DNA from: Kitasatospora azatica KCTC 9699
GTDB lineage: Bacteria; Actinomycetota; Actinomycetes; Streptomycetales; Streptomycetaceae
Length of the DNA: 64,000 nucleotides
Assembly (NCBI RefSeq): GCF_000744785.1
Contig: NZ_JQMO01000002.1
Span: 2,294,001-2,358,000, forward strand
Direction of reading: 5' to 3'
Part shown: one piece after another, positions 6,593 through 8,335 of the stretch
Position numbering within the stretch: position 1 is the stretch's first letter
How the letters are laid out: each line of letters opens with the position of its first letter
Translations under genes and position numbers: made by a program
The notes under the pieces: model-generated
Databases searched by the model: none
What the model was told of the DNA's origin: nothing
The model's input: only the letters and a program-made list of their open reading frames with translations

Positions 6593-7497
6593 AGCTCGGC
6601 CCGCAGCTCGGCCCGCCTCGAGGCCCGCAGGCTGGTGACCGTGGTGACCGCCAGGACCAGCACGATGAAGCCCAGCGAGAGCGGGATGCCGATCTCGGGC
6701 ACCCGCACCCCGCTCTCGTGCAGGGCGTGCAGCACCAGCTTCACGCCGATGAAGCCGAGGATCACCGAGAGCCCGTACGAGAGGTGGACCAGCTTCTTCA
6801 GCAGCCCGCCGAGCAGGAAGTAGAGCTGGCGCAGGCCCATCAGGGCGAAGGCGTTGGCGGTGAGCACGATGTACGGCTGCTGGGTGAGGCCGAAGATGGC
6901 CGGGATCGAGTCCAGCGCGAAGAGCAGGTCGGTGGTGCCGATCGCCAGCATCACCACGGTCATCGCGGAGATCGCCGGGAACCGCCGCCGGACGGCCGTG
7001 AGCAGCCGGTTCTCCTCGAACTCGGCCTCCTGACGGCCCGCCCGGGCCTCCTTGACCAGCTTCCAGGCCGTCCAGACCAGGAAGGCGCCGAAGAAGTAGA
7101 AGACCCAGGAGAAGGTGGCGACCAGGGCCGCGCCGCCGGCGATGAAGACCGCCCGCAGCACCAGCGCGATGATCACGCCGACCATCAGCACCCGGGCCTG
7201 CTGGACCTTCGGCACCGCGAACTTGGCCATGATCAGGACGAAGACGAAGAGGTTGTCGACGCTCAGCGACTTCTCGGTGACGTAGCCGGCGAAGAACTCC
7301 CCGGCCGGCTGCCCGCCGAACCGCCACCAGAGGAAACCGCCGAAGATCAGCGCCAGCACCACCCAGACCGCGGTCCAGGCACCGGCCTCCTTGATCGAGA
7401 CCTCGTGCGGCTTGCGGCCGCCGATGAAGAAGTCGGCGGCGATCAGGGCGACCAGCACCCCGATGGTGGTGATCCACAGGGTGAGAGAGACGTCCAT
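6574..7497 (-). CDS. TerC-family integral membrane protein (probable Mn(II) exporter)
   Basis: 307 residues with 7-9 hydrophobic segments. TerC hallmarks are visible: EKSLSVDNLFVF near residue 79 and TTDLLFALDSIPAIFG about 115 residues later. Each contains conserved acidic residues in a membrane segment, thought to form the ion path. TerC/Alx proteins export manganese, some to exoenzymes. The ATG at 7497 has GGAGGAG 8 nt upstream, and this Shine-Dalgarno sequence lies in a perfect hairpin downstream of a candidate yybP-ykoY element, so translation is probably controlled by Mn(II). A TerD-family gene lies immediately upstream in the same direction. The C-terminus ends in short Arg-Ala-Glu-Leu repeats. 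Confidence 0.9.
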   Translation of the reverse strand: MDVSLTLWITTIGVLVALIAADFFIGGRKPHEVSIKEAGAWTAVWVVLALIFGGFLWWRFGGQPAGEFFAGYVTEKSLSVDNLFVFVLIMAKFAVPKVQQARVLMVGVIIALVLRAVFIAGGAALVATFSWVFYFFGAFLVWTAWKLVKEARAGRQEAEFEENRLLTAVRRRFPAISAMTVVMLAIGTTDLLFALDSIPAIFGLTQQPYIVLTANAFALMGLRQLYFLLGGLLKKLVHLSYGLSVILGFIGVKLVLHALHESGVRVPEIGIPLSLGFIVLVLAVTTVTSLRASRRAELRAELRAAEG

Positions 7498-7507
7498 GGA
7501 AGCTGCT

Positions 7508-7534
7508 CCTCCGGCAGGTGTCGACTGCCGGAGG
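7508..7534 (-). promoter_or_regulatory. Shine-Dalgarno-sequestering hairpin of terC
   Basis: Perfect 10-bp stem CCTCCGGCAG / CTGCCGGAGG with a 7-nt loop. The 3' arm contains the GGAGG of the terC ribosome binding site. The 5' arm begins with CCTCCG, the same bases that can close the P1 helix of the upstream riboswitch, so the two structures exclude each other. Confidence 0.85.
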
Positions 7535-7661
7535 TCTCTTCCGTCCGCCTGCTGAGGGACGTCTGGTCGGGAACGTCTGCTCAGGCGGACCGGTGAACCC
7601 GGGTGACCACCAGAAAGGTCACCGTGATGACGGGAGCACCGTAGGGGAATACTCCCCTCCG
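7529..7661 (-). promoter_or_regulatory. Candidate yybP-ykoY manganese riboswitch upstream of terC
   Basis: Read on the minus strand, the leader starts with CGGAGGGGAGTA and ends with GGCGGACGGAAGAGACCTCCG. GGGGAGTA and the closing GGAAGAGACC region are the conserved parts of yybP-ykoY elements, which bind Mn(II) and often precede terC/alx or mntP genes. P1 can form between CGGAGG (5' end) and CCTCCG (3' end), and an internal helix between GTCCGCC and GGCGGAC closes the second arm. A further hairpin, CACGGTGACC with GGTCACC, lies inside. The assignment is by motif and context; a covariance-model search (Rfam RF00080) was not run. Confidence 0.75.
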
Positions 7662-7706
7662 ATACCAAGGAGAGTACCAGTGATTCCCAAGAGAAGGTAA
7701 AGAGCT

Positions 7707-8291
7707 CTACAGGAACGGCTCGATCGCGGGCAGCAGGTCCTGGAAGGTCCGCGCCTTGGCCGGCGCGCCGATCGCCTGCATCCCCCAGCCGCCGCCGCTC
7801 GGCTCGCGGAAGACCTTGGCCATGATCTGCCCGGTGTGCCCGCCACCGCCGGCCAGGTCGTAGCGGGCCAGCTCCTGGTTGGTCAGCTCGTCCAACAGCC
7901 GGCAGTGCGCGTTCTGCACCTCGGCGAAGGTCTGCCCGGTGTACGAGCTGACGGTGAAGACCACCTGGGTGATCCGCTCCGGGATCCGGGTCAGGTCCAC
8001 CACGATGGACTCGTCGTCCGCCCCCGCCCCGGCGCCGCCGACCAGGTTGTCCCCGGTGTGCCGCACCGAGCCGTCCTTGCTCACCAGCTGCTGGAAGAAG
8101 ACCACGTCGGCCGGGGTGTGCTCGGCGTAGAGCAGCGCGGAGGCGTCCAGGTCGATCTGCCGGGTCCGGCTGCCGAACAGGCCGCGCTTGGGCGCCGCCC
8201 GCCAACCCAGGCCCATCCTGACCAGGCTCAGCGACTCCCCGCTTGCCTTGCGCAGGCTCACCTGCTGGCCCTTGCTCAGACTCACCGACAC
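7707..8291 (-). CDS. TerD-family stress protein
   Basis: 194 residues. The opening VSVSLSKGQQVSL is the canonical TerD start, followed by LGLGW-type and DLDASALLY motifs, a calcium-binding-like acidic loop (DDESIVVDL, with DNLVGGAGAGADD before it) and the conserved IGxIxNAH-like stretch AEVQNAHCRLLDE. TerD proteins are cytosolic calcium-binding proteins linked to tellurite, envelope and development phenotypes. I chose GTG 8291, 6-8 nt after GAGGGGG; an ATG at 8324 would add 11 basic residues. It lies directly upstream of the riboswitch-terC unit in the same orientation, so a shared metal-stress role is plausible. Confidence 0.87.
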   Translation of the reverse strand: MSVSLSKGQQVSLRKASGESLSLVRMGLGWRAAPKRGLFGSRTRQIDLDASALLYAEHTPADVVFFQQLVSKDGSVRHTGDNLVGGAGAGADDESIVVDLTRIPERITQVVFTVSSYTGQTFAEVQNAHCRLLDELTNQELARYDLAGGGGHTGQIMAKVFREPSGGGWGMQAIGAPAKARTFQDLLPAIEPFL

Positions 8292-8335
8292 TGTGCGGCC
8301 CCCTCTTCGTTTCGCCCTGCTCACCCTAGGCCCTG

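Follow-up and report, generated by a model that had tools for sequence, protein, structure and literature searches.

Does the leader of a terC gene in Kitasatospora azatica KCTC 9699 sense manganese, and does it control translation by letting two helices compete for the same six bases? The gene lies in the window, by which we mean the whole stretch of 64,000 nucleotides analysed here, taken from a genome of 8.27 Mb in three contigs. Its product matches PF03741 (174 bits) and TIGR03718 R_switched_Alx (333.8 bits, cut-off 246.4), which identifies the target as a TerC/Alx exporter, and its start codon is the ATG at 7497-7495 on the minus strand. A gene for a TerD-domain protein (7707-8324, minus strand) stands directly upstream of the leader, making terD and terC neighbours. 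The best-scoring named terC loci were those of Streptomyces tateyamensis and Kitasatospora mediocidica.

A first-pass annotation had proposed that CGGAGG (7661-7656) can pair with CCTCCG (7534-7529), and that this CCTCCG also starts a perfect 10-bp hairpin holding the GGAGG of terC. Both pairings were borne out, with all coordinates correct on the minus strand. The hairpin arms run from 7534 to 7525 and from 7517 to 7508 around a 7-nt loop, the hairpin alone folds at -19.4 kcal/mol, and GGAGG is paired with a probability of 0.99-1.0 in the free ensemble. The leader as a whole folds at -89.7 kcal/mol versus a mean of -64.2 kcal/mol for shuffled sequences (z -5.76), and none of 200 shuffles was as good. 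We read it as a Mn-sensing riboswitch of the yybP-ykoY class that turns on terC translation, with a probability of roughly 0.85; we infer both Mn as the ligand and the direction of the switch. At low Mn(II), CCTCCG would pair with CGGAGG (7513-7508) as the lower part of the 10-bp hairpin, and the closed hairpin would keep the ribosome from reaching GGAGG. Mn(II) would dock L1 against L3, upon which P1 (CGGAGG at 7661-7656 with CCTCCG) would hold the shared strand; of the hairpin, perhaps no more than the upper GCAG/CTGC part would remain, and GGAGG would be exposed. The features are collected in Table 1.

Table 1. Features of the terC leader and gene, in window coordinates, with the basis of each assignment.
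Feature	Position	Strand	Basis
Leader promoter, -35-like TTTACC	7696..7701	-	TTTAC-N18..20-TAnnnT conserved upstream of P1
Leader promoter, -10-like TACTCT	7671..7676	-	conserved hexamer upstream of P1
Predicted Mn(II) aptamer, yybP-ykoY type, three-way junction (P1, P1.2, P3, P4; no P2)	7529..7661	-	R1 score, alx homology, covariation
P1 5' strand CGGAGG	7656..7661	-	invariant in 39/39; last two bases belong to the selection motif
L1 5' strand GGAGTA	7650..7655	-	invariant in the alignment, but in the selection motif
Helix P3 (CGGTG/CACCG, CCCG/CGGG, GGTGACC/GGTCACC) around L3	7591..7641	-	compensatory changes
L3, putative metal loop, TCATCAC	7624..7630	-	same 7-nt register as solved aptamers
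Helix P4 hairpin GTCCGCCTG/CAGGCGGAC	7543..7590	-	covariation and fold
P1.2 3' strand GGAA (with TTCC 7649-7646) and L1 3' strand GAGA	7535..7542	-	state of the P1.2 end pair in 39 leaders
Shared strand CCTCCG, forming either the 3' side of P1 or the first six bases of the hairpin	7529..7534	-	class-wide covariation with downstream partner
10-bp hairpin CCTCCGGCAG/CTGCCGGAGG hiding the Shine-Dalgarno	7508..7534	-	fold, conservation
Shine-Dalgarno GGAGG of terC	7508..7512	-	10 nt before ATG
terC, TerC/Alx family metal homeostasis membrane protein, 307 aa	6574..7497	-	PF03741 and TIGR03718

The assignment to the yybP-ykoY class, also made in the first-pass annotation, is supported by the core nucleotides, which match those of solved aptamers. 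Below L1, the P1 closing helix CGGAGG/CCTCCG pairs in all 39 aligned family leaders (see below) without variation. L1 itself is an internal loop of GGAGUA opposite a GAGA-like strand with a conserved A; its role in the yybP-ykoY aptamer is described in PMC6754395. The solved L3 loops are UCA41AU43UC in L. lactis and ACA48U49ACU52 in X. oryzae, and their third base is an adenosine whose N7 contacts Mn (PMC6754395). In the window, L3 is UCAUCAC, which likewise has seven nucleotides with adenosine third and is identical to neither solved loop; TCA and AC are invariant in 39/39 leaders. Judged by this register, A7628 is the putative counterpart of the Mn-coordinating adenosine A41/A48. The P3 and P4 helices around the junction covary within the family, and the end pair of P1.2 is U-A in 15 leaders, C-G in six and unpaired in 18. 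The window leader has no P2 hairpin between P1.2 and P3 and thus lacks the four-way junction of the solved structures. P2 does not define the class, because the mgtA leader is described as a three-way-junction member (PMC9495176) and alx has, by eye, only about 4 nt between P1.2 and P3, at the place of P2. RNAalifold placed a GGGA/TCCC hairpin inside L1 that pairs in 39/39 leaders without double changes and is possibly an apo-state helix. Streptomyces leaders such as L053, L058 and L088 carry CAGCGACGACGCTG and a second TGCCG in the hairpin loop, as seen by eye; these might pair into an additional stem once P1 has closed.

To place the leader within its family, we located 110 Streptomycetaceae terC loci (30 from genomes of the genus and 80 named ones), which include near-duplicate strains and paralogues and are therefore not independent. 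The aptamer was present in 70 of these, 69 by its end motifs and one (L102) by a covariance model applied to the remaining 41, and absent from 40. All 70 aptamer leaders have CCTCCGG...CCGGAGG before the start codon. Thirty-nine leaders, at most 88% identical, were chosen from the 69 motif-positive ones for alignment. Selection relied on the end motifs, so GGGGAGTA and AGACCTCC are invariant by construction, yet CGGA before GGGGAGTA, G after AGACCTCC and the downstream CGGAGG were unselected and are also invariant in 39/39. Changes on both sides were found in 12 of 29 pairs, with 80 double-sided change cells versus 31.6 in shuffles (0/500 reaching this) and at most 33 in slid registers. For inner P3 we used the commoner register (92.7% of cells paired) over the first one (86.8%), which is the one in the window. 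P1 shows no covariation in these leaders because it never varies there. In the hairpin, two pairs show a single double change each, a level matched by 13 of 500 shuffles.

Promoter boxes accompany the aptamer across the family. In 65 of 69 Streptomycetaceae leaders the 65 nt preceding P1 contain the pattern TTTAC-N18..20-TAnnnT, and 53 of the 69 have a TA[CG]N[CG]T hexamer whose first base lies 14 or 15 nt ahead of P1. The terC transcript is predicted to begin around 7664-7663, immediately ahead of P1. A pairing of upstream GGTACTCTCC with GGGGAGTATT, noticed by eye, was dropped because the stretch is the -10 region.

The first-pass annotation had expected a match to the covariance model RF00080 and had named its absence as a refutation. 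No Rfam family reached its gathering score anywhere in the window; RF00080 was absent from 7300-7800 at E-values up to 10 and gave no match in 13 terC loci at E up to 5, where its one match was to the leader of a GDT1 gene (L001). In E. coli K-12, used as a control, RF00080 scored the mntP leader at 41.6 bits, under the 45-bit cut-off (release 15), and reported nothing in the alx region at E up to 1. Since it does not report alx either, the absent match does not refute a riboswitch, and we rejected RF00080 as the deciding test. Its threshold does not define the riboswitch class, and we do not claim membership of the thresholded model. Across 394 genomes of the class, RF00080 had no match over the cut-off and ten genomes with a match at E up to 0.01. 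A match to sodF-sRNA at 7508-7593 (18.4 bits, cut-off 46) was rejected as far below threshold, reflecting the hairpins.

We built a separate covariance model, R1, solely from the 39 Streptomycetaceae terC leaders. The window leader, as a member of this training set, scored 90.5 bits. R1 also recognised the E. coli K-12 alx leader (L228:6376-6499) with 49.9 bits and an E-value of 1.6e-7 in 253 kb, linking the leader by homology to a known member of the class; it did not find E. coli mntP (L229), which counts against our reading, as does the absence of the aptamer from 40 of the 110 terC loci. At E up to 0.1 it matched 238 of 394 class genomes, spread over 84 of 138 genera; in a sample of the phylum, with E up to 0.001, the figure was 65 of 396 genomes. 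Both samples include the window and its relatives. These counts are lower bounds: searches over more than 40 genomes use stricter filters, and the genome search gave a single match in the genome of the window itself, missing a second leader there that R1 scores at 46.8 bits. Another match in the window, at 2574-2659 (15.8 bits, E 1.3), was weak and taken as chance.

The homology to alx also bears on the ligand. The main signal could be alkaline pH or a metal other than Mn(II), with TerC serving in pH or general metal stress; the relation to alx through R1, the citation of a yybP element as pH-responsive (PMC4681348) and an L3 that differs from both solved loops would fit this. However, the leader retains L1, the flanking helices and the coordinating adenosine, and the target is TerC/Alx, a family in which V. 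parahaemolyticus TerC is described as a Mn exporter (PMC13274385). We consider a pH or other-metal signal unlikely and retain Mn(II) as the probable ligand.

The competition for CCTCCG was assessed across the class. We took 60 loci of the class among the matches listed, mostly one or two per genus and seven from one genus, and 55 of them had TerC downstream by tblastn. An exact complement of the leader's own P1 3' strand occurred within 115 nt after the aptamer in 35 of these 55 terC leaders (among the matches listed), versus a mean of 18.5 and a maximum of 27 when strands were shuffled among the leaders; none of 20,000 shuffles reached 35. This permutation test ignores phylogeny, and the 115-nt search region reaches into the coding sequence. 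A start-codon triplet followed within 22 nt of the complement in 35/35, counted as triplets rather than as confirmed true starts. Among the 18 leaders whose strand is not CCTCCG, ten had the matching complement (shuffled mean 2.7, 0/20,000; again among the matches listed). These ten represent five strand types in seven families among the matches listed: CCTTCG/CGAAGG (L189, L192, L222), CCTTGG/CCAAGG (L208), CCTCGA/TCGAGG (L203, L206, L211, L217), CCTCAG/CTGAGG (L225) and CCTCCA/TGGAGG (L182). In several variants the P1 5' strand pairs the 3' strand only partly, over four or five of six bases. When a shift of one base was allowed, 41 of 55 leaders among the matches listed had a complement, versus a shuffled mean of 23.0 and a maximum of 33. 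The remaining 14 of 55 had none even then (L173, L174, L177, L184, L186, L197, L200, L202, L207, L209, L216, L218, L224 and L226); by eye, several of these have partial complements and some have none.

One strand can thus pair either with the P1 5' strand or with the Shine-Dalgarno, and both pairings are conserved jointly. The joint change of the P1 strand and its downstream partner across the class supports the P1/Shine-Dalgarno exchange, as the first-pass annotation had proposed. In the other five of the 60 loci (L179, L193, L199, L214 and L223), the gene after the aptamer is not terC; it codes for a protein of some 280-295 aa that contains a conserved DRAAIARYDYLLQTADP-like stretch. Neither Pfam nor NCBIfam gave a match to the L179 protein at E up to 0.001.

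Folding energies, which contain no metal or tertiary terms, favour the apo form. Enforcing the aptamer costs 13.1 kcal/mol by minimum free energy and 13.9 in ensemble energy, and this 13.9 is the largest gap between free and P1-enforced ensembles among the 39 leaders (median 9.9, lowest 6.1). With the aptamer enforced, GGAGG becomes cheaper to open (4.7 instead of 9.9 kcal/mol at 37 C), and so does 7512-7495 (7.4 instead of 14.2 kcal/mol). GGAGG is then still predicted to be mostly paired (0.53-0.97), with early codons in the lowest-energy fold. An apo preference of about 13 kcal/mol is much for one metal site and counts against the switch. In this model, the choice between the two forms is probably made during transcription, because the closed hairpin form is much the more stable and because P1 is complete before the Shine-Dalgarno strand exists.

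We next compared the leader with known systems, of which E. coli alx is its nearest known relative. The alx and mntP leaders have been named Mn-sensing riboswitches (PMC9603457). The alx leader shares with the window leader the aptamer recognised by R1, the few nucleotides between P1.2 and P3 and the TerC/Alx gene family, and its L3 is UCAUUAC versus UCAUCAC. It differs in that the hairpin competing for its P1 strand (GACCTTGCC/GGCGAGGTC, L228:6493-6514) is, by eye, without the Shine-Dalgarno and ends 66 nt before the start codon, whereas the terC hairpin in the window contains the Shine-Dalgarno. The first-pass annotation had likened the mechanism to alx and mntP; the window leader does not simply repeat the alx arrangement. 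The mntP leader, whose ribosome-binding site is inaccessible without Mn (PMC11647493), belongs to the same class, but its L3 contains ACAUACU and its target is MntP. In Corynebacterium glutamicum, cg2157 (terC) has a yybP-ykoY leader with a transcription start observed at the motif (PMC3890552). This is likewise a leader of the class before an actinobacterial terC, compared here by description only; the passage of PMC3890552 gives no switching mechanism.

A different platform is known from the same bacterial family. The yybP element before SCO2347 in Streptomyces coelicolor, which may be a TerC or a GDT1 gene, is of the same class but is presented in PMC4681348 as attenuation. The genome of the window itself contains a second Mn-type aptamer, in the leader of a GDT1 gene (UPF0016, PF01169) at C3:4357714-4357888 (L001:1501-1675). 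This is the 46.8-bit R1 match missed in the genome search; RF00080 gives it 29.7 bits and its fold has a z of -4.62. Unlike the terC leader, it has an L3 of ACAUACU, the X. oryzae type, and its GAGACCU is taken into a terminator-like hairpin before seven T instead of into a Shine-Dalgarno hairpin. One aptamer class thus serves two platforms in one genome.

These examples raise the alternative that the terC leader attenuates transcription, through Rho or an intrinsic terminator, instead of hiding the ribosome site. The GDT1 leader with its terminator-like hairpin and seven T is a precedent for this, as is E. coli mntP, where Rho terminates in the riboswitch region (PMC11647493). The terC hairpin, however, is followed by no T-run, contains the Shine-Dalgarno, and has a strand that changes together with the P1 strand near the start codon. 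We regard attenuation as quite unlikely here, and control of translation through the Shine-Dalgarno remains our preferred reading.

We then considered the 40 family loci without an aptamer, seven of which keep the Shine-Dalgarno hairpin (L056, L061, L063, L070, L075, L084 and L096). In each of the seven the promoter boxes are retained, and a P1-like strand lies 8 nt past the -10-like box; this strand can form 5 to 9 bp with the shared strand. In place of the aptamer, 25-37 nt separate the conserved GGAG and CTCC. A pattern search for this form matched three of 297 family genomes, but over the matched stretch these do not differ from L063, L070 and L084, so no new case was added. The predicted folds of the aptamer-less leaders disagree on the state of the Shine-Dalgarno, and a temperature switch was rejected, as folding at 10-45 C showed no consistent melting. 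Elsewhere in the family, the Streptacidiphilus jiangxiensis locus contains a c-di-AMP riboswitch (RF00379, 52.8 bits, L069:1-134, cut at the locus end) about 1.2 kb upstream of its terC leader.

The seven relatives, of 110, in which the hairpin persists but the aptamer is missing would suit a plain translational hairpin in the window as well, its resemblance to an aptamer being accidental or decayed. The aptamer core, the covariation in 39 leaders and the recurrence across the class make this highly improbable, and we maintain that the leader is very probably a Mn-sensing riboswitch.

A broader interpretation can be offered only tentatively, and we think it rather doubtful as a whole. The P1/Shine-Dalgarno exchange may be the common platform of an Actinomycetes-wide family of terC riboswitches unseen by current Rfam, held by three-way coevolution of the P1 5' strand, the shared strand and the Shine-Dalgarno; in addition, in one Streptomyces group the sensor may have been deleted while promoter, P1 strand and hairpin were kept, which would leave an RNA switch that lacks a sensor and has a rebuilt P1-like stem.

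Much of the setting is known already: the yybP-ykoY class, a terC leader in Corynebacterium and an element in Streptomyces coelicolor. Passages from a few open-licence papers on the subject described neither this terC leader nor the P1/Shine-Dalgarno exchange. The leader is very probably a well-formed but unremarkable member of a known riboswitch class. It offers a clean, minimal putative Mn switch in a streptomycete-like genome, in which the exchanged strand can be read by eye, and its strong bias towards the closed form recommends it for studying whether metal switches are decided during transcription. As RF00080 misses the element in a large part of the class, Mn regulation of TerC is probably under-annotated there.
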